Shown here: positions 27,633 to 48,779 of the stretch, piece by piece
Position numbering within the stretch: position 1 is the first letter of the stretch
Layout: every line of letters starts with the position of its first letter
Source of the DNA: Apilactobacillus apinorum
GTDB taxonomy: Bacteria > Bacillota > Bacilli > Lactobacillales > Lactobacillaceae
Assembly (NCBI RefSeq): GCF_001281175.1
Contig: NZ_KQ440396.1
Span: forward strand, 186,001 to 250,000
Direction: 5' to 3'
DNA: 64,000 nt
Notes under the pieces: generated by a model
Told to the model about the DNA's origin: nothing
The model's database searches: none
What the model saw: only the letters and a program-made list of their open reading frames with translations
Translations under genes and position numbers: made by a program

Positions 27633-28533
27633 GGTTTAAAATATCATTCATTAATGAATCATTGAATTTTTGTTCTTTTAGCATTTTAACTTCGAAATAA
27701 TGTGGAGATACTTTTTTCTTAGTTCCTTCAATAGCAACAGCTGGTGTTTCCATCACTTTAGGAACATCCACAAGAGAATCATGATGAGCAATGTAATTAA
27801 GAGCATCGAAACCAATTGTTCCTAGACCGATAATTTCATGTCTATCTTTATGGCTGCCAAAATCATTTTTAGAATCATTCAAATGAATTACTTTAATCTT
27901 ATCTAATCCGATAACATGATCAAATTCATTTAATACTCCATCGAAATCATTTTTGACATCATATCCTGCATCATTAGTATGACAAGTATCAAAAGTAACT
28001 GACAATTTATCATTCAAAGTAACCCCATCCATAATCTGAGCGATTTCTTCAAATGTTCTACCAACTTCTGTACCTTTACCAGCCATAGTTTCCAATGCAA
28101 TTTGAACCTTTTGATCGGGTTCAATTACTTCATTAAGTCCTTTAGCGATTTGTTCGATTGCTTTATCAGCACCTTCACCTACATGAGCCCCTGGATGCAA
28201 TACGATTTGAGATGCACCGATTGCTTCAGCTCGTTTTACTTCATCATGTAAAAATTGAATTCCAAATTCGAAATTTTGAGGCTTCGTAATATTTCCTAGA
28301 TTAATAATGTATGGAGCATGGACAACTGTTTCTAATATATCATGCTCTTTCATGTATTGTTTTCCATCGTCAGCACGTAGTTCTTCGATTGGTTTTCTTC
28401 TAGTATTTTGAGGTGCACCAGTGTATACCATAAATACGTTTTCGCCATAACTGTCAGCCTCTTTAGCAGAGCCTAAAAACATAGTTGAACCGCTCATACC
28501 TACATGTGAACCAATTAAAAACTTACTTTCCAT
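27628..28533 (-). CDS. nfo: Endonuclease IV (AP endonuclease)
   Basis: 301 residues, TIM-barrel AP endonuclease. Zinc-site motifs: [45 protein letters not shown] and [22 protein letters not shown] (in parts). It cleaves the backbone at abasic sites in base-excision repair. The start overlaps the end of the upstream glycerophosphotransferase gene by 11 bp, so it is transcribed as the tail of the wall-polymer cluster, an unusual linkage. Confidence 0.95.
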
Positions 28534-29746
28534 TATTAATCCCCCTCATGATTTTAACAAATTCTTCTGAAGAATTTTCAGATTCCCATCCACAGAATTT
28601 ATCATAAAATTTATCGTATTTTTCAACATAATCTTCGTATTCATTACTTTCAGTGAAAATGCGAATTTGATTATAGAAATCATTTTCTTCTTCTACAACA
28701 GGTCCTGGTAATTCACTTCTATAATCGAAGTAAAAACCTCTTATGTCATCTTCATAGTGATTTAAATCATAAGCGTAAAATAACATTGGTCTCTTCAAGT
28801 TTGCATAATCGAACATTACTGAAGAATAGTCAGTAATCAATAAATCTGTCATTAGATAGATATCACTCATATCTTCTTCTACCATGATAAATGCACGATC
28901 TTCATAACCAGTGATATCAATAAAGTCTTTTACTAGATAATGTGGACGTAAAATTAGGAATGTATTTTCATCAACATTGTTAAAAAACTCTTCCAAACTG
29001 AAAGGCAATTCAAAATTATAAACTCCCTTACGCTTATAGTTATCATCTCTCCATGTTGGAGCATAAGTAATAACTCTTACGTCATCTCTACCTAAATATT
29101 GTTTCTTTAACTTACTGATTTGTAACTCGTTATTATCATAATAAAGAACATCATTACGAGGATAACCAATATCTAAAAACTTGTTGTTAAAGCCAAACGC
29201 TCTTTTAAATATATCCTTAGAGTATTGATTTGGCGCAATTAAATAATCCCAACGATTAGCTTCTTCAGTAAAGTTCTTTTTATATCTTTCTGTATCAGTT
29301 CCAGGCATCATAACATTTTCAATGTCTGTTCCTAATTTTTTCAAAGGAGTTCCATGCCAAGTTTGCATGTAAACAGTTCCCTTGTTTTTGTTCCACCACT
29401 TGGGTGTTCTTGAGTTAAAAACCCAAAAGTTGGCTCTAGCCATTGCCCAAACCCATCTTGGCATAAATCGTTTAACGATTTTTACATCTGGGTATAACTT
29501 ACTGAAAGTCTTATATTCGGACTTTCTCACAGTAAAGTAAGCAATATTTTTATATTCAGGATATAATTCAACCCATTTTTGATAAATCGCTGCTGGGTTA
29601 TCATTTATATCCTTACCTTGAAAACTTTCGAAAACTACAGAGTTCTTCTTAACCGGTAAAATAATCAAGAAATTATTAATAAGAATCAAACATCTTCTGA
29701 TTGATTTTTTTATTAATTTAACTATTTTCTTTTTAAGTTTCATCAT
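28523..29746 (-). CDS. CDP-glycerol glycerophosphotransferase family protein (TagF/TarF-like)
   Basis: 407 residues. A basic amphipathic/hydrophobic N-terminus (1-32) suggests membrane association. The GT-B-like catalytic domain has [12 protein letters not shown] (His131), GYPRNDV, APTWRD, RPHY (His269) and [10 protein letters not shown], the set needed for transfer of glycerol phosphate (or ribitol phosphate) from CDP-alditol. It is full length for a single-domain TagF/TarF-type enzyme. It resembles the second transferase domain of the 1676-residue protein at 43.7-48.8 kb. Acceptor and exact alditol cannot be told from sequence. The start could be the second ATG (29743); the RBS (AAAGGA) is distant. 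Confidence 0.88.
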
Positions 29747-29769
29747 AAAAAACGTTCAATCCTTTTATA

Positions 29770-30588
29770 TTAAATATAATCAACGAATCTTGCTCTAAAC
29801 TTGTAATGTAGATGTGAACCGATTAATAGGAAGAATAATACCATTAACCAGAAAATAAGCATCAACATAGGTTTTTGCCAGAACCAATCTTCACCTAACA
29901 TTGATTCTCTGAATCCTGAAACAATGTAGAAAAATGGGTTTAATTGTAAGAATCTAACAAAGAATGCTGGGAATGCATTAGTTTCAAAGTTAAATAGCAC
30001 ACCAGACATATAGAATAGAACTCTCATAATTGATTGTAAGAAAATTCTGTAATCACGAACCAAAATAGTTACTGTTGAATTAAAGATTCCAAATGCTAAT
30101 AACCAGCAAATCATTGCAAAGAAGTAGTAAATCCATTGGATCCAGTATATGTTAGGTAATACTCCACCCTTTAAGTATCCAAGAATAATTGAACAAGCAA
30201 GCATTGCCCAGAAAGAACTTAGGTTAGTAAGAATCTTAATTGAAGGTAATACACTTACAGGGAATTTCATTTTTGATACCATTCCCACTTGTTGGTAGAT
30301 ACTCTTTGAGGCATCTAAAGTTACACTGTTCATGTAGAACCATGGAGTAATACCGATAACCATCCAAGTTAGGTAGTCAACACTTCCAGAAGTTCCCTTT
30401 TTCAATCCAACACCGAAAACTAACCAATAAATCATAATTTGAATAATTGGGTAAAGGTATGCCCAGATAATTCCTAAATAATGACTTTGGTAGTCAGATT
30501 TGTCTTCATATTTAGATACTCTAAACATGATTGGTAAATTTTCAATTTGTTCTTTTATTAATGTAATGACTTCCTTCAAGTCGATCAC
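29770..30588 (-). CDS. tagG: Teichoic-acid ABC transporter permease TagG-like
   Basis: 272 residues with six predicted membrane helices and an amphipathic N-terminal helix, as in ABC-2 polysaccharide export permeases. SKYEDKSDYQSHYLGIIWAYLYPIIQ, in parts, is the TagG/Wzm family start, and LNPFFYIVSGFRESML is the conserved C-terminal segment. It should flip lipid-linked wall polymer outward together with a TagH ATPase. No ATPase gene is adjacent, so TagH must be elsewhere. It is sandwiched between two glycerophosphotransferase genes and in one operon with them. Confidence 0.93.
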   Translation of the reverse strand: MIDLKEVITLIKEQIENLPIMFRVSKYEDKSDYQSHYLGIIWAYLYPIIQIMIYWLVFGVGLKKGTSGSVDYLTWMVIGITPWFYMNSVTLDASKSIYQQVGMVSKMKFPVSVLPSIKILTNLSSFWAMLACSIILGYLKGGVLPNIYWIQWIYYFFAMICWLLAFGIFNSTVTILVRDYRIFLQSIMRVLFYMSGVLFNFETNAFPAFFVRFLQLNPFFYIVSGFRESMLGEDWFWQKPMLMLIFWLMVLFFLLIGSHLHYKFRARFVDYI

Positions 30589-30595
30589 ACTTCCT

Positions 30596-31747
30596 TTACT
30601 TTAAAGTTTTTATATATTTATCAATAACTCTGGTCGTAGCAAAACCGTCGTTATATTTATTCCAATGATTGTTAAAATTAGTGAAATCAGTTTTCTTATT
30701 TTCACTAATTGCTAACTTCAATTCATCCAATGTTTTAATTGGATTAGTTGGTAACCAATTTAACAAGTTTTCTTGTAATCCTGGCTTTTGTTTATATTTT
30801 TCAATATCAAACATAAAGAATAACAATGAGTGTGCATTTGGTAGTAATGAATAATCAAACGCTACAGAAGAATAATCGGTTACTAACGTATCAGTTACAG
30901 CCAACAAATCAGTCGTAGAAAGTTGATTGCAGAATAAAACGTTTGGACATTTTGTTTCTTCTTGTAACTTACTTTCAATATCACGCAACAATGGATGTAA
31001 TTTAATTACGACCATTGCATTTTCATCATTAGACAGAGCCTTAATTAATCCCTTAGGCGGATTAAATGATTGTCCGTCATCTCGATATGTAGGCGCGTAT
31101 AAGATAACTCGCTTATCCTTTAATTGTGGTGCAAAGCTATAAACTCTTCTTCTAGCAATTTGAAGCCATTTATCTTTAAAAAGTCTATCTGATCGAGGAT
31201 ATCCCATCATTTGCATCTTATCAAATGAGACATGATAGCTTTCTTCAAATACGTGTCCCATGGTTTCAGAGGCGACAACATATTCATCAAAACTATTATA
31301 TACTTTTTGGAATCTTCGCTTATCAGAGTTACTTCTGTCTTTTGTTGATGGGTCTTGCCAGCCAAATTTCTTAATAGCACCATTTGCATGCCACAACTGA
31401 ACAACCTTTAGTTTTTTGGATTTTACGATTCCACCCATAAACGGAAAGTAATTATCACAAAAAACAACATTACTTGCCATTATTTTTGGAATTAAATCCA
31501 TTATTAGCTTAAGGCCTTCTTGAAATTGTACTGTTTTAATACCATATGCTGCTAAATCTGTAGCAGCAGCTTCATTCGAAGCCTCATAATAAACATAAAG
31601 GGTCTTATCTTTTGGCATCTTTCTCGCCATCGATTTAATTAATCCTAAATTATTATCAAAACTCATTATGTAAATTACATTTTGCTTCTTCTTAAAGAAA
31701 CAAATTAATGAAACCAATCTAATTAAACATATATATATGACTTTCAA
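30596..31747 (-). CDS. CDP-glycerol glycerophosphotransferase family protein (TagB-like)
   Basis: 383 residues from a TTG at 31747, chosen because GGTGGGA lies 6 nt before it and because the extended -10 promoter at 31793-31801 would start transcription near 31786, ruling out the longest open frame. A hydrophobic N-terminal helix precedes the catalytic domain: QLWHANGAIKKFG (the TagB-type HxN variant of WHG), GYPRSDRL, APTYRDD, KLHP and TDYSSVAFDY. TagB-type enzymes add the first glycerol phosphate to the lipid-linked disaccharide primer. The primase role is inferred from the motif variant. Confidence 0.82.
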   Translation of the reverse strand: MKVIYICLIRLVSLICFFKKKQNVIYIMSFDNNLGLIKSMARKMPKDKTLYVYYEASNEAAATDLAAYGIKTVQFQEGLKLIMDLIPKIMASNVVFCDNYFPFMGGIVKSKKLKVVQLWHANGAIKKFGWQDPSTKDRSNSDKRRFQKVYNSFDEYVVASETMGHVFEESYHVSFDKMQMMGYPRSDRLFKDKWLQIARRRVYSFAPQLKDKRVILYAPTYRDDGQSFNPPKGLIKALSNDENAMVVIKLHPLLRDIESKLQEETKCPNVLFCNQLSTTDLLAVTDTLVTDYSSVAFDYSLLPNAHSLLFFMFDIEKYKQKPGLQENLLNWLPTNPIKTLDELKLAISENKKTDFTNFNNHWNKYNDGFATTRVIDKYIKTLK

Positions 31748-31792
31748 AACATATCCCACCAAAATTTTAATAAAACTATCACACAATCCAGT

Positions 31793-42180: not shown

Positions 42181-42507
42181 TTACTTAGACTCAGCTTGTG
42201 CCTTTTGCAGCTTAAGTTGTTTCAATTTTTCCTCATGCTGTTGTAAGTGTGATTCCAAATACAACATTAGTGAATTTTCATCTTTGAAAATACGAGGATG
42301 TTTTTGTTTATGAAGTCTTAAGTCAATTTCATTAATTTTTTGTCTACCAGTCCACTTATGACCGTATCTAATGATTAGTCGATTATCCAAGTTTTTCTTT
42401 CCGAATCTAAATACATAAACGTTATCAGGAGTAAGTAATGGTCTAATATAAGTCTTTTTGTAATAGTATCCATTATCTCTCAAAAACTTCTTTGTACGAT
42501 TAAGCAT
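42181..42507 (-). CDS. Hypothetical protein, 108 residues
   Basis: Start MLNRTKKFLRDNGYY is set by GGAGGTG 6 nt upstream; five further codons are open before it. The N-terminal half is basic and Tyr-rich (GYYYKKTYIRP; VYVFRFGKKN) and the last 35 residues form a charged Gln/Lys/Glu helix, possibly a coiled coil. No signal peptide or membrane helix. I do not recognise the family. It has its own promoter and terminator. RBS and codon usage support a real gene. Confidence 0.7.
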   Translation of the reverse strand: MLNRTKKFLRDNGYYYKKTYIRPLLTPDNVYVFRFGKKNLDNRLIIRYGHKWTGRQKINEIDLRLHKQKHPRIFKDENSLMLYLESHLQQHEEKLKQLKLQKAQAESK

Positions 42508-42577
42508 TATTAACACCTCCATTTTCTTATTATTTATTTAATAAAGCATAAATCTGTCCATAAATCATTCTATATAA

Positions 42578-42672: not shown

Positions 42673-43413
42673 TTATTTTACTTCACCAACATCAATTGCT
42701 TGATGCTTTAGTTTTTTAAAGATATGTTTATCAGCAATTCCAGTAATTCCACCTTGGAAGAAGAACGCAAATAGTGTTCCTAATCCGAAGTTATTAAATT
42801 GATGAGTAATGATAATAGCAACAATTGCCATTAATGTAGGTGGAATGTATGAGAACCACATTGCCTTTGAAGCATTTCCGTTACAGTATTTGAATCTTAA
42901 AATTTGCATTAAGTCATCTGCAGGATGTAAAGCAATGTTAACACGTTGGTAAATTGAAATTGCAATCGCAATAAATGAAACACCAACAAAGTTTAATAGA
43001 ACATATAAAACTGTCATTAACCAACCATGTGCATCTGGTAACCAGTTAGTAACAATACCGTTGAAGTAATTAATTAGTAATGAGAATGGTCCTAAGAATG
43101 CAGCATTTCCAAGAACTCTACTCCAGCTCCATTTACCAACTAAAATAGAATTTAGCACTGTAATTAGCATACCTAAACCAAAGAATGCCCAGAATAATAC
43201 CCATTTACCATTACCTAGAACGGCAAAACCTAGGTTATTTTCCGCAGCAGTCCAATATGCTGATCCTAAGAATGCTGGATGAATTTTTGCACTAGTAACT
43301 AATGTTAATACATTCCCCATTGAATTAATAATCAAAGATACTAAAAAGTAAATGATGGCACTAGTCCATGAAATAGTTCTTTTAGTTTTGTTAGCACTTC
43401 CATTAATTTGCAT
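42673..43413 (-). CDS. Integral membrane protein of unknown function
   Basis: 246 residues with about six hydrophobic helices (roughly 14-42, 68-90, 103-120, 131-156, 188-205, 207-226) and a basic, His-containing C-terminal tail. The N-terminal INSMGNVLTL and the HPADDLMQILRFKY segment loosely recall YczE/YyaS/YitT-type permeases, but I cannot assign it firmly. AAAGGAG precedes the ATG. It is monocistronic, with an AT-rich upstream region. Confidence 0.75.
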   Translation of the reverse strand: MQINGSANKTKRTISWTSAIIYFLVSLIINSMGNVLTLVTSAKIHPAFLGSAYWTAAENNLGFAVLGNGKWVLFWAFFGLGMLITVLNSILVGKWSWSRVLGNAAFLGPFSLLINYFNGIVTNWLPDAHGWLMTVLYVLLNFVGVSFIAIAISIYQRVNIALHPADDLMQILRFKYCNGNASKAMWFSYIPPTLMAIVAIIITHQFNNFGLGTLFAFFFQGGITGIADKHIFKKLKHQAIDVGEVK

Positions 43414-43714: not shown

Positions 43715-43746
43715 AAAAAAGCATTGAATAATATTCAATGCTTTTT
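43715..43746 (-). terminator. Terminator of the tri-domain polymerase gene
   Basis: AAAAAGCATTGAAT, 3-nt loop, ATTCAATGCTTTTT: 14 bp perfect, just after the stop codon. Confidence 0.92.
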
Positions 43747-43748
43747 CT

Positions 43749-46700
43749 CTATTTTCTCAAATCGAATATGTTTACCCAATAAGAGTTACTGTTTAACTTA
43801 ATCAATGCAAATGAGTCTCCCACTTGTTCATTAAAGTGTGGATCGATTAAATGCATTTCCTTGATAACTTCAACTTTTTGGTCACCATCAATATTAATCG
43901 CAAATTTTATATCATTAAAGTCTGCGAAGTCTTTATCGGGTTGCCATAATGCTGAACCATCGTTTACAATCATTGTCTTTTCTAAATTATGGGATGCAAG
44001 ATTGTCATCATATACTTCTTCTAAGCTATGATTATTTAACATCTTTTCTACTGCTCGTTTGGATGCATTTCCATCCATCCATGATGCATATTTATTAAAG
44101 AATTCCATGTACTTTTCATCCGGTTGCCAATTATCTAAAATATCTTTCAAATTGGATACAACATCTTTAGTCGTTTTAACCATTGGTCCAGGAGCCTCTT
44201 TAACAAAATCAAAATAGAAACCACGAATTTCATTAGCATATGCATCTAAATCGTATGTGAAGAAAATCATTGGACGTTTTAATGTTGCATAATCGAACAT
44301 TACAGAAGAATAATCAGTAATTAAAACATCACTAATCAAGTATAAGTCCGCAATATCTGGATACTGACTGACATCCAAAGCAATATCAGTATAACTTGAT
44401 AAGTCTAAGTTATTTGAGATTAAATAATGTGTTCTAACTAAAACTAAAACATCACTACCAAAAGCAGCCTTAACTTGATCTAAATCAAGATGCAACTTAG
44501 CAGTAAACTCATCATTTTTAACGTATTCATTATCGCGCCATGTTGGTGCGTACAATACAACTTTTTTATTGCTATCGATATTAAGTGCTTTCTTGATTCT
44601 TTGAATATCATCACTAGTATGATTAATTAATACATCATTTCTGGGATATCCATCTAGTTGCATTTGATTTGCCTTCATTCTAAAAGCTCTTTGCATAATC
44701 TTGGCTGAATACATATTAGGAGCAATTAATCTTGACCATCTATTATCATCTTTAAAAACATCTTTATGATACTTTTGAGCATTCATCCCTGGCATTGTTA
44801 CTTTCATAACATCAGCCGCCAACGTTTTTAACGGTGTTCCATGCCAAGTTTGTAAAACAACAGTATCTTCGCTAGGTTGCCATCTAAATGGTCTTCTAAC
44901 ATTGGTTACCCAATACTTAGCTCTAGCTTGCTTCCAAATGCTACTAAAGCCAAATCGCAAGATATGTGGAATATTATTATCAATGAAGTATTGCTTATCT
45001 TCATCATTAACATTCCAATATAACTTGTATTGTGGATAATTTTTTGCCATATATTCATATATCGCTTTAGGATTATCAGAATATTGTGTACCAAAGAAAC
45101 TTTCAAAGATAACGATATTCTTTTTAGATAATTTCTTAGATAGCCAATTTAAAATTTCTGCTTGCAAATAATTAGTATTAAAGAAATGACCAATCTTTCT
45201 AGTAATCAATTTATCATCAGGTTCTTGATCAAGATCATCATCATTAGTATTTAAGACGGTTTCAACAACTTGTTTTGTGGCTGTTCCCCCATCCCCATAC
45301 TGCGCGAACTCTGTATAGAACTGATCTAACTGTTCTTTATATTGATCATGAACGCTATTTAAATTGACTAAACTATCAATTAATTGATTTTCATCATAAA
45401 CAATTGGTCCGGGCATTTGTTTATCGTAATCTAGATAAACACCACGGTTTTCTTCATCTAAATACCAATCTTTATCATATGCATAAAAAATCATTGGACG
45501 TTTCAAATGTGCAAAATCAAACATAACTGATGAATAATCAGTTACCAATGTATCAGCAATTAGGTATAAGTCATTAATATTGTCATAATCACTAACGTCA
45601 TAGACAAATCCAGGATTAGAATAAAAACTATTTGAATGGGCTACAAAATAATGCAATCTAACTAACAATACATATTCATCAGAAAGCTTGTCTTGTAATT
45701 TATCTAAATCCAATTTGAAATCGAATCCAGCATCTGCTCTATACGTTGGCGCATATAAAATAACCTTTTTATCTAACGGAATGCCAATTTTGTTCTTAAT
45801 TTGATTACAGTAATCAACATTATTATTTGTGTATAATTCATCATTTCTAGGGAATCCAGATTTAATTATTTTTTGACTATAATTAAAAGCCTTACTTGCA
45901 GTTCTAGCCATATAATCAGATGGCACAACTAAATAGTCCCAACGACGATTTCTATGAGCAAATAGATTTTGAATTTTTTTAGTTCCAAATTTAAAGTGAG
46001 GTTCATCATAACCCATGTGCTTTAAAAATGTTCCATGAAGAGTTTCTACTTCAATTTGTCCCTTTCGCTTTGCATATCTATTTGGCATATTAGTGTTTTG
46101 AATAATGTATTTAGCAACTGCTAAATAGTACCAATATTTAAAACTATTCACTTTTACTCTATCAGCATTACCAGTGATCTTAGTTTCAGTGTTATTAAAA
46201 ATCCAAACTGTTTTTATTTCAGGATGTTCTTTAACAACATATTCATACATTAATCTTTCATTACTATCAAATTTAGATGACCAGTATGAATCAAAAACCA
46301 TAACCTTTCTTAGAGGTAAAAATCTCATTAAAGGATATAGTAATGAGTATGATAGTGATCTGAGTGATTTTTTAGAATCAATCAACTTAAAGAATGGTTG
46401 GTTAATACATAATAATATGTTTTTATCAGCATCTTTTTTTACTTCATATTTAACCACCGAACTACCTTTAAATGGCAATTCTGTTAACCCTATCTTAGCT
46501 TTTTTAGCATACTTAATTCGATAAATATCTACTTTATTTTCATTATAGATATACGCCTTAAATTGATAATCTCCACTCAAAAGATTTAACTGAGTTTTTT
46601 GATTGTTGGTTAGCTTGTAATTGAAAGATAAAATTCCTTCATTAAATTTTAAATCGTTATTATCTTCATCAAGAACAACTCTAGTTTGTTTATCCTTGCT

Positions 46701-48779
46701 AATCATTTCAACACGACTGTTATTGATATTAACGTTCTTTAAATCCCTGTAATTCTTTAACTTAGCTTCTACCTTTAAGACGTTAGAACTATTAATTGTC
46801 ATTTTATTGATGACAAAAGGAGTTCTTTCATATGTCATTTCCATATGATCTGGGTCGCCATAATACATAGATAACGAATAATCATTAGATAAATTAATTT
46901 GTTTATGCATCTTTTCAGAGAAAAATGAATATCCCACAAGTGCATTAGTTACTGTGTCACGAATAAATAGACCGACTTTTTTATTTACAAATAGCTTGTT
47001 AAAATCACTCAAAGCAAAAATAAATCCACCTTCATGATTTTGCTTAGCCATAACTTGATTTTGTCCGTCTGAAATAACCATATTGTAATCACTAGCTGTC
47101 GCATTGGTCATATTGAAAATGACGTGTTCTTCATCCTTGATATTTGGAACACTGATTATTGGATCATGGCCTTTTTTAGCTTCAACACTATTTACATCAA
47201 ATACTAACGTTCCAACACTATTGTATCTAGTAATGACCTTAAACCCATCTCTTTCAAACGGCATTAACTTTCTTTCAGCCAATTTATCGGTTGGATTAGT
47301 TACTACATCATTAATAAAATACTTGTTGCTAATTGAATTGCTAATTTGTAATTTCCATGTTCCAATCCCTAAATGTTTTACGGCTTTTGGGATACTAAAT
47401 ACAACTTCATATCCTGCATTATTGTACTTACCTTTTGGTTTCATAATGCGTTTTAATAATATCGTTGGTTTTCTAACAATATTTACTTTATAAGATTTAT
47501 TGTTTTTTATATTAATTAAATTGGCTGTAATGGTTTCACTTGAATTAGCTTTATTAAACCATTTTTTGATTAATTTAATTCGATTGAACTTAAAAGCACC
47601 ACTAATTTCAAAAGTACCCTTCTTAATATCTCTGTATTCAGCCTTACGAATCTTTTGATCGATTTTACAGTTATTGTTAGAAACATTTAAGTGACTAATT
47701 AAATCCTTGTCATTACTAATTTCTGGTAGTCTTAACTGATATTTTCTACCATGAAAACTACTTTTGAACTCACCTATCACTTCATTGTAAGTAAATGAAT
47801 TAATCATTGAAATATCATTAACTTGGAGCGCATGATACATTATTTGGTGCTTAATTGGTAATAGATTAAATATGTCAGAACTCCATAGATTCCAATCTCT
47901 TAGAAAAACGTAAACCATTTCTTGGACTTTATAAATATAGTCTTCTTCGTTATCACCAAGATTTTGAATAAAAATATAAATATCCAAAAATAGTACTTTA
48001 TACATGAAATCCATAATCATACTATCTTGTTTATCAAAACCCGCATCTAATAACATTTTATATGCAATGTTTAATGCATCTAAACGGTTTTGAAAGTTAG
48101 ATAATGCACTCCTTGTTTGAGTGATGGAATCTGAACTTTCTCGCCATCTCCATTTATAAACAACATCTTCAATAATAGACGTCTTTTTAGACTTTAAGTG
48201 CACATCTAAAGTAAAGGGAATGTCTTCATAAATCATCCCTTCAATAAATTTAATGTTATTTTCTACTAAAAATGAGCGTTTGTATAACTTATTCCAAACC
48301 GTTGTGTCATATAGTAAATCATGATTAAATTTTAAGTCAGTATCGTTATAGTCATCATGAACCGCAAAAGAATGAAGGTATGAATTAGTCAATCGATACT
48401 TATCAAATCGTTCAACGAATCCAACAACAACATCAGAATCATTTTGACGTGCCTTATAAGTTAAGTTGGAATATGCATCTTCAGGAACAATATCGTCTCC
48501 ATCAACAAAGGCAATATATTTTCCTCTTGCATGCTTCATTCCATAATTTCTAGTGGTACTGATTCCACCATTGGTCTTATGTAATGCCCTAAAAAAATCA
48601 TATTTTTCAGCATATTCATCAATAATATCTTTGGTTTTATCTGTTGATTCATCATCAATCATTAATACTTCAAGGCTATCCTTGGGGAAAGTTGTATTTG
48701 CAATTGAGTCTAAACATCTTCTGATATAATCTTCGACGTTATAACAGGCTACAATCACAGATAAATATGGTTCTCTCAT
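43749..48779 (-). CDS. Giant wall-polymer polymerase: GT2 glycosyltransferase plus two CDP-glycerol phosphotransferase domains
   Basis: 1676 residues. Residues 1 to about 330: GT2 (GT-A) glycosyltransferase with LSVIVACYNVEDYI, NGGISTTRNYG and the metal-binding DGDD at 93-96. About 330-800: beta-rich linker with no recognised motif, probably several Ig-like sandwiches. About 810-1175: TagF-type domain 1 with LHGTFLKHMG (His915), GFPRND, APTYRAD, RLHY (His1043) and [10 protein letters not shown]. About 1215-1580: TagF-type domain 2 with WHGTPLKTL (His1313), GYPRND, APTWRDN, THY (His1451) and [10 protein letters not shown]. About 1600-1676: small C-terminal module. All three active sites look intact. 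It probably builds a teichoic-acid-like or capsular polymer combining sugar and glycerol (or ribitol) phosphate at the inner membrane face; export could use TagG. Alone in its transcription unit. Confidence 0.9.
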   Translation of the reverse strand: MREPYLSVIVACYNVEDYIRRCLDSIANTTFPKDSLEVLMIDDESTDKTKDIIDEYAEKYDFFRALHKTNGGISTTRNYGMKHARGKYIAFVDGDDIVPEDAYSNLTYKARQNDSDVVVGFVERFDKYRLTNSYLHSFAVHDDYNDTDLKFNHDLLYDTTVWNKLYKRSFLVENNIKFIEGMIYEDIPFTLDVHLKSKKTSIIEDVVYKWRWRESSDSITQTRSALSNFQNRLDALNIAYKMLLDAGFDKQDSMIMDFMYKVLFLDIYIFIQNLGDNEEDYIYKVQEMVYVFLRDWNLWSSDIFNLLPIKHQIMYHALQVNDISMINSFTYNEVIGEFKSSFHGRKYQLRLPEISNDKDLISHLNVSNNNCKIDQKIRKAEYRDIKKGTFEISGAFKFNRIKLIKKWFNKANSSETITANLINIKNNKSYKVNIVRKPTILLKRIMKPKGKYNNAGYEVVFSIPKAVKHLGIGTWKLQISNSISNKYFINDVVTNPTDKLAERKLMPFERDGFKVITRYNSVGTLVFDVNSVEAKKGHDPIISVPNIKDEEHVIFNMTNATASDYNMVISDGQNQVMAKQNHEGGFIFALSDFNKLFVNKKVGLFIRDTVTNALVGYSFFSEKMHKQINLSNDYSLSMYYGDPDHMEMTYERTPFVINKMTINSSNVLKVEAKLKNYRDLKNVNINNSRVEMISKDKQTRVVLDEDNNDLKFNEGILSFNYKLTNNQKTQLNLLSGDYQFKAYIYNENKVDIYRIKYAKKAKIGLTELPFKGSSVVKYEVKKDADKNILLCINQPFFKLIDSKKSLRSLSYSLLYPLMRFLPLRKVMVFDSYWSSKFDSNERLMYEYVVKEHPEIKTVWIFNNTETKITGNADRVKVNSFKYWYYLAVAKYIIQNTNMPNRYAKRKGQIEVETLHGTFLKHMGYDEPHFKFGTKKIQNLFAHRNRRWDYLVVPSDYMARTASKAFNYSQKIIKSGFPRNDELYTNNNVDYCNQIKNKIGIPLDKKVILYAPTYRADAGFDFKLDLDKLQDKLSDEYVLLVRLHYFVAHSNSFYSNPGFVYDVSDYDNINDLYLIADTLVTDYSSVMFDFAHLKRPMIFYAYDKDWYLDEENRGVYLDYDKQMPGPIVYDENQLIDSLVNLNSVHDQYKEQLDQFYTEFAQYGDGGTATKQVVETVLNTNDDDLDQEPDDKLITRKIGHFFNTNYLQAEILNWLSKKLSKKNIVIFESFFGTQYSDNPKAIYEYMAKNYPQYKLYWNVNDEDKQYFIDNNIPHILRFGFSSIWKQARAKYWVTNVRRPFRWQPSEDTVVLQTWHGTPLKTLAADVMKVTMPGMNAQKYHKDVFKDDNRWSRLIAPNMYSAKIMQRAFRMKANQMQLDGYPRNDVLINHTSDDIQRIKKALNIDSNKKVVLYAPTWRDNEYVKNDEFTAKLHLDLDQVKAAFGSDVLVLVRTHYLISNNLDLSSYTDIALDVSQYPDIADLYLISDVLITDYSSVMFDYATLKRPMIFFTYDLDAYANEIRGFYFDFVKEAPGPMVKTTKDVVSNLKDILDNWQPDEKYMEFFNKYASWMDGNASKRAVEKMLNNHSLEEVYDDNLASHNLEKTMIVNDGSALWQPDKDFADFNDIKFAINIDGDQKVEVIKEMHLIDPHFNEQVGDSFALIKLNSNSYWVNIFDLRK

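Follow-up and report, generated by a model that had tools for sequence, protein, structure and literature searches.

The window analysed here is the whole stretch of 64,000 nucleotides from Apilactobacillus apinorum (contig NZ_KQ440396.1, positions 186,001 to 250,000). One of its genes encodes a protein of 1676 residues with a GT2 glycosyltransferase and two TagF-type transferase domains, which we call T1 and T2. The features of this gene and of the nearby wall teichoic acid (WTA) genes are as follows.

43749..48779, minus strand: the whole gene, 1676 aa from an ATG start, in the order GT2, middle region, T1, T2, C-terminal beta domain (Pfam)
48075..48779, minus strand: GT2 (GT-A) glycosyltransferase, residues 1-235 (Pfam and fold matches)
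48495..48503, minus strand: DxD of GT2, D93-G94-D95 (alignment)
46365..48074, minus strand: middle region, residues 236-805, fast-evolving (divergence), with helices and then beta-rich parts in a model of modest confidence
45255..46364, minus strand: T1, first TagF-type transferase, residues 806-1175, motif LHGTF (PF04464 and alignment)
46035..46037, minus strand: H915, putative catalytic base of T1 (aligned to TagF H444)
46026..46028, minus strand: F918 of T1 (alignment), a position that is Pro in GroP transferases and Gly in RboP transferases by the rule in PMC10299916
44025..45143, minus strand: T2, second TagF-type transferase, residues 1213-1585, motif WHGTP as in CDP-glycerol users (Pfam and alignment)
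44841..44843, minus strand: H1313, putative catalytic base of T2 (alignment)
43752..44024, minus strand: C-terminal domain, residues 1586-1676, predicted mostly beta; a polymer-binding role would be a guess
43716..43746, strand not assigned (the scan listed the plus strand only): terminator-like palindrome of 14 pairs directly after the stop codon
48852-48835, minus strand (the gene's own): terminator-like site between a permease gene and the start of the 1676-aa gene (terminator scan)
28523..29746, minus strand: stand-alone TarF-like transferase, 407 aa, likely of the same pathway (PF04464 and tree)
29770..30588, minus strand: ABC membrane protein (PF01061), TagG-like by position
30596..31786, minus strand: TagB-like primase, 396 aa (PF04464)

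GT2 is matched by PF00535 over residues 7-171 (E 1e-32), with VDGDD at residues 92-96. PF04464 matches the frame in two stretches (E 6.8e-216, the best being 1216-1580), and the two single-domain scores of 372 and 361 bits each exceed the curated cut-off of 22.1. The protein has PRND, APTYR/APTWR, RLH/RTH and TDYSSVMFD along with both His (H915 and H1313). Every scored residue is kept in the alignment. These are D93, D95 and D186 in GT2, H915, K920, R978, R1014, R1041, H1043, S1083, S1084 and D1088 in T1, and H1313, K1318 and the counterparts of the others in T2. The HG-motif His, the RxH His and the Arg, Ser, Ser and Asp contacts are present in both T1 and T2. The first-pass annotation had proposed three intact active sites in one chain, and this stands. 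It had also said that the proposal would fall if a transferase domain lacked its key residues, and in the window protein neither domain does. Against the nearest relative (L016) dN/dS is 0.031 for GT2, 0.022 for T1 and 0.058 for T2, which indicates strong purifying selection on all three domains. Since 34 distinct proteins, our own included, also align over the whole length, the three-domain architecture is far beyond chance.

It must be noted that family scores can mislead here. The NCBIfam equivalog for TarF (NF041712) asks for a score of at least 550. The whole protein reaches 656 bits because the scores of two domains are summed, while the single domains reach 299 and 381. The equivalog for TarL, the ribitol-phosphate polymerase (NF041713), gives 197.9 bits against a cut-off of 1000. 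The fold matches of the protein are all to known folds. The C-terminal domain has no Pfam family over its cut-off (the best is Phage_CI_C, sub-cut-off at E 0.0043) and is aligned by none of the best 50 fold matches listed. Its pLDDT is 50 in the first block of ten residues and 62-91 after that. An SH3b polymer-binding C-terminus, as in the capsule enzyme Bcs3, was suggested to us by the mostly-beta prediction and found no support among Pfam families over their cut-offs or among the listed fold matches. The AlphaFold models are weak (A1, pLDDT 58.9 and pTM 0.38; A2, pLDDT 50.4 and pTM 0.34) and fix neither the position of Phe918 nor how far apart the active sites are. Each was built from nine sequences, namely the window protein and 8 of the 10 loci of a contig scan, omitting a broken homologue (L012) and a two-domain relative (L014).

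The gene looks monocistronic, given the terminator-like site before its start and the palindrome after its stop. The first-pass annotation had it standing alone. That is true of the window, where the nearest WTA genes are the TarF-, TagG- and TagB-like genes about 12 kb away, but relatives carry it beside such genes. In L080 (genome G618) the order is tagB-like, tagA (named by eye), tarF-like and then the GT2-T1-T2 gene. It adjoins a gene named tagB-like from its place in the TagF-domain tree in L036 (G048), and tagG-like genes in L055, L056, L060, L061 and L063, as well as by eye in L046. The g5 genomes have both tagG-like and tagH-like genes beside it. In L062 and L065 it follows tagD and a tarF-like gene, and in L054 it is near both. 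In Lactiplantibacillus genomes a TarF-like gene of 396-405 aa adjoins, with tagD too where the region was viewed; the viewed region of L013/L053 showed neither neighbour. Since the gene adjoins tagB, tagA, tarF, tagD or tagGH in relatives, we argue that the protein is very probably a WTA chain polymerase. The link to teichoic acid and the idea of a polymerase, both made from the window alone, are borne out to that extent.

The own genome has TagD, which makes CDP-glycerol, together with TagA-family and TagO-family proteins and, by eye, an MnaA-like gene (in L064). A tagH gene was not seen beside the genes at 28523-31786; a TagH-like ATPase, 61% identical to the protein in L063, lies on another contig (G000:C1:513487-514533). 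On the 3' side of the GT2-T1-T2 gene there are a 113-aa protein without a Pfam family (42181-42522) and a DUF6198-like membrane protein below its cut-off (42673-43413), and both also lie after the gene in L005, L006, L008, L009 and L010. Further large TagF genes were seen in several genomes. One of 744-767 aa directly precedes the GT2-T1-T2 gene in P. myokoensis, A. ozensis and A. xinyiensis (L008:4885-7188, L009:4912-7152 and L010:3558-5792); in the window it is not adjoining. G048 has a tandem pair of 760 and 767 aa near lepA (L057:3786-8394), and its GT2-T1-T2 gene is elsewhere, beside aspS and the tagB-like gene. In L062 (10851-14189) and L065 (2137-5430) a second large TagF protein, of 1112 and 1097 aa respectively, adjoins; it has one full TagF domain and apparently a partial, degenerate one before it. 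A membrane protein of 370-394 aa, by eye like the AI-2E-family transporters, adjoins a tagD or tagB-like gene in three genomes (L052:7834-8946, L064:9718-10845 and L080:14533-15717).

The distribution of the protein was examined at several depths. The contig scan, the one search reaching beyond the order, gave ten loci, six of them in Apilactobacillus with the nearest at 93% identity, and the two-domain relative L014 in a Clostridiales bin. All 16 Apilactobacillus genomes searched have the gene. It is one intact frame in 15, each with all scored residues kept. The exception is A. micheneri (G006; L012, L030 and L031), where the homologue is broken within T2 into a 1443-aa frame and a separate remnant, through loss or a sequencing error. 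In the family, 35 of 397 Lactobacillaceae genomes match at E <= 1e-140, spread over 7 of 40 genera. Three-domain proteins make up 34 of the 35, in six genera including our own (G006 being broken and G052 having a doubtful start). The remaining match, G045, is the sole matching genome of its genus. It has GT2-T1 only, in 1144 aa, and a separate 408-aa TarF-like gene. In the order, 15 of 395 genomes (Lactobacillaceae included again) match at E <= 1e-110. Six of these lie outside the family, and G618 alone among the six has the three-domain protein.

A tree of 76 TagF domains, midpoint-rooted and sampling 19 of the 34 distinct three-domain proteins, speaks to how the chain was assembled. The 19 T1 domains form one group (support 100/99) that lies next to the domain of the GT2-T1-only protein of G045 (100/96). 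The 19 T2 domains form another (100/99), nested with stand-alone TarF-like enzymes in a wider group (100/97); support for the group immediately beside T2 is weak (86/51). The tree tool flagged several long branches, including L052, L056_T2 and L055_T2. T1 and T2 are 34% identical and fall in separate supported groups, so we reject a recent tandem duplication of a single TagF domain. With all T1 in one group and all T2 in another the fusion looks single and old, so T1 and T2 look like distinct old lineages that were joined once. The scatter of carrier genera suggests transfer of the gene between them as well.

Relatives in which catalytic residues have been lost offer another line of reasoning. 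Residues were scored in distinct frames of at least 1600 aa (n = 34, own included). This set leaves out the broken L012/L030 and the cut copies L003, L069, L070 and L072; L003 and L012 were among the 33 rows of an earlier table. All scored catalytic residues are kept in 29 of the 34, one of which (L013) seemingly has no in-frame start of GT2. In this Lactiplantibacillus plajomi locus (L013/L053) the start of GT2 and the remainder of the protein seem to lie in different frames. The other five fall into two kinds. Three g14 proteins have D95R in GT2 and have lost R1041 and others in T1, including H915R and H1043D, with T2 intact. Two g5 proteins, G058 and G140, have H1313 replaced by Gln or Asn and the neighbouring Trp by Gly in T2, with GT2 and T1 intact. 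Near the G058 gene lies a separate TagF-type gene of 399 aa. The test that the window protein passed therefore has a different outcome across the family, where T1 residues are gone from three relatives and those of T2 from two others.

The altered domains are also the more diverged ones. Between L040 and L042 identity is 64% in GT2, 65% in T1 and 88% in T2, and between L055 and L056 it is 65% in T1 and 43% in T2. For intact proteins, the T1 and T2 identities lie within 6 points of each other in all seven pairs compared. The altered domains nevertheless remain under constraint when close species are compared (L040/L043, dN/dS 0.037 for GT2 and 0.027 for T1), and their frames are open, so they are not simply decaying and may be kept for structure. 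A search of 24 g14 genomes found the same three carriers and no intermediate in the loss of GT2 and T1. The joint loss, which is seen in three species of one genus, may have been one event. We argue that these reciprocal losses suggest two modules, GT2+T1 and T2.

The donor pockets of the two TagF domains are not the same. In previous work the residue at TagF P447 is Pro in enzymes that use glycerol and Gly in those that use ribitol (PMC10299916). The motif is WHG in glycerol phosphate transferases and QHG in hexose phosphate transferases, and the CDP-glycerol-binding residues described in Cps3D are Arg, Ser, Ser and Asp (PMC11666461). T2 has the full CDP-glycerol pocket motif of WHG and Pro (W1312, H1313 and P1316). 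T1 has L914, H915 and F918 at these places, although its Arg, Ser, Ser and Asp contacts are retained. Phe918 is found in 34 of 34 proteins. The T1 motif is LHGTF in the window and FHGTF in G618, and G045, the nearest T1 relative in the tree, has HGTP. As a motif, the LHGTF of T1 fits no described class, whether by the glycerol rule (WHG, Pro), the ribitol rule (Gly) or the hexose-phosphate rule (QHG). Cps3D transfers GroP onto a sugar and keeps the Pro (PMC11666461), so a sugar acceptor by itself does not account for Phe918.

One can imagine that the two domains use two different alditols, and the first-pass annotation had proposed a repeat with alditol phosphates A and B. The two alditols found no support, although an alternating three-part repeat as such may still be made. 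A search for the IspD/TarI family (TarJ not included) found no TarI-type CDP-ribitol synthetase in the own genome, whose single IspD-family match is a 457-aa ORF (from ATG) that is GlmU-like by eye. The own assembly is 96.57% complete and a gene could be missed there, but the 16 genus genomes agree. Each has a single IspD-family match in an open frame of 460-478 aa and no TarI-type enzyme; in 4 of the 16 the match is just over the family cut-off, in the same GlmU-sized frame. Since TagD is present and a TarI-type enzyme was not found, CDP-glycerol is the only alditol donor indicated in the genome.

We propose that this protein is the main-chain polymerase of Apilactobacillus WTA, a GT2-TagF polymerase (GT2+T1) fused to a TarF-like T2 with a division of labour between them. 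We give this reading a probability of roughly 0.45. TagO, TagA, TagB and the stand-alone TarF-like enzyme would first make the linkage unit. With CDP-glycerol as donor, T2 would extend a glycerol end by glycerol phosphate, GT2 would add a sugar to the growing chain end, and T1 would add a phosphate-linked group, most simply glycerol phosphate, to that sugar. The two TagF sites would then differ by acceptor, a sugar end or a glycerol end, rather than by alditol. This would give a poly(glycerol phosphate) that contains sugar, in a regular or an irregular pattern. We infer this polymer structure. A sugar in the backbone is favoured by analogy with the GT-A/TagF fusions examined in Gram-negatives, which build linear backbones with the sugar inside (PMC5974469), and mildly by the joint loss of GT2 and T1.

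The rival that survives best is a polymerase that decorates its own product. T1 and/or T2 would make plain poly(GroP) and GT2 would add side-chain sugars during synthesis. It stays alive because the best fold matches of residues 1 to ~537 are enzymes that decorate WTA: RmlT (8bz5, Z 21.8, 412 aligned, rmsd 14.1 as the parts fit separately), TarS (5tze, Z 20.4, 305 aligned, rmsd 4.6) and TarP (6h21, Z 19.4, 282 aligned, rmsd 4.3). A common GT-A fold does not fix the acceptor, however, and decorators are normally separate enzymes. If GT2 acts on any GroP chain, its joint loss with T1 while T2 is kept would be unexpected. Among WTAs in general, poly(GroP) decorated with sugars is known (PMC4155827), and we regard this reading as unlikely but worth taking seriously.

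Another scenario casts T2 as a primer of the TarF kind, responsible for the first glycerol phosphates, after which GT2+T1 make the long chain. T2 does group with the stand-alone TarF-like enzymes, G045 carries its GT2-T1 protein and TarF-like gene separately, and G058 and G140 have lost the His of T2, with the 399-aa TagF-type gene near in G058. However, all 16 genus genomes have a stand-alone TarF-like frame (410-418 aa), which would make a fused primer superfluous. In g14, without the GT2 and T1 residues, T2 is the only site with its residues intact, and so we consider this division improbable.

T1 could instead be a sugar-1-phosphate transferase. The chain would then alternate sugar phosphate and glycerol phosphate, a pattern like that of type III teichoic acids. 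The Trp and Pro of the glycerol pocket are absent from T1, and the Gram-negative GT-A/TagF capsule enzymes with known products include hexose-phosphate transferases (PMC5974469). But T1 lacks the QHG reported for hexose-phosphate transferases (PMC11666461) and keeps the Arg, Ser, Ser and Asp described in Cps3D, and its nearest relative in the tree has HGTP. This makes the scenario decidedly improbable. That one TagF domain is merely structural in the window protein is hardly credible: relatives do retain a T1 or T2 stripped of catalytic residues, but the scored residues are kept here and in all 15 intact genus genomes, and both domains have low dN/dS to L016 (0.022 and 0.058), even if low dN/dS does not by itself show catalysis (it is 0.027 for the altered T1 of L040/L043).

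Several known systems resemble the window protein in part. In the capsule polymerases CslB and Cps1B (PMC5974469), as in the window protein, a GT-A domain with DxD at the N-terminus and a TagF-like domain with the five motifs share a single chain. They are described with one TagF-like domain and come from Gram-negative capsule loci, and the product of CslB is a poly(oligosaccharide phosphate), whereas the window protein has two TagF domains in a Gram-positive WTA setting. Bcs3 of H. influenzae b (PDB 8a0c) also places several enzyme sites on one polypeptide that makes a repeat, one of them the TagF-like CroT (PMC10299916). It differs in its phosphatase, its ribose-phosphate transferase and its use of CDP-ribitol, and the account of its domains drawn on here mentions no second TagF-like domain. 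No phosphatase family is among the Pfam matches of the window protein up to E 1. The TagF of S. epidermidis (PDB 3l7i) is matched in its catalytic half by T1 (E 6.7e-70) and by T2, the best stretch of the whole protein (E 2.8e-101), and its N-terminus matches the window GT2 weakly (35 bits). It has one transferase domain, unlike the window protein, and makes poly(glycerol phosphate). TarS, TarP and RmlT, the best structural matches of the GT2 half, decorate chains, unlike the proposed polymerase, and to our knowledge have no TagF domain.

The same kind of protein is already in print under a simple name. A published Lactiplantibacillus pentosus locus has TagD, TagF1 (405 residues) and TagF2 (1675, group_728), with another copy of 1092 residues (PMC12090711). 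This agrees in order and size with L062 and L065, which have TagD, 405 aa, 1678 aa and then 1112 or 1097 aa. We infer from size and gene order, rather than from sequence, that this TagF2 belongs to the GT2-T1-T2 family. It is called a GroP polymerase there. The passages of that paper drawn on here do not mention the GT2, the two TagF domains or lost sites, and the three-site anatomy, the single fusion and the reciprocal losses are not described in them. L. plantarum WCFS1 needs tagF1-tagF2 for its glycerol-type WTA, and its TagF2 has 941 residues (PMC3511166). Searches of open-licence PMC text found no paper on two TagF domains and teichoic acid, none combining Glyphos_transf with Glycos_transf_2 and no TarL structure paper. 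For Apilactobacillus and teichoic acid, none of the matches listed there was titled on teichoic acid synthesis.

The GT2-T1-T2 family is a concrete candidate for the way in which Gram-positives make teichoic acids with a sugar in the chain. It is also a caution that TarF/TagF annotation by summed score or by length can hide three enzymes in one chain. The stronger claim is that one polypeptide builds a heteropolymeric WTA by means of two TagF sites with different jobs, T1 with its LHGTF being a class with an undescribed donor or acceptor. We hold this as a tentative and rather doubtful proposal. The family comes with built-in natural variants, namely relatives without the GT2 and T1 residues, relatives without those of T2 and one with GT2-T1 alone. 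Setting the wall polymers of these carriers side by side would reveal the contribution of each site. If the proposal is true, Apilactobacillus has a polymerase for sugar-containing WTA, and the reciprocal loss of modules in its relatives would be the natural evolution of polymer structure.
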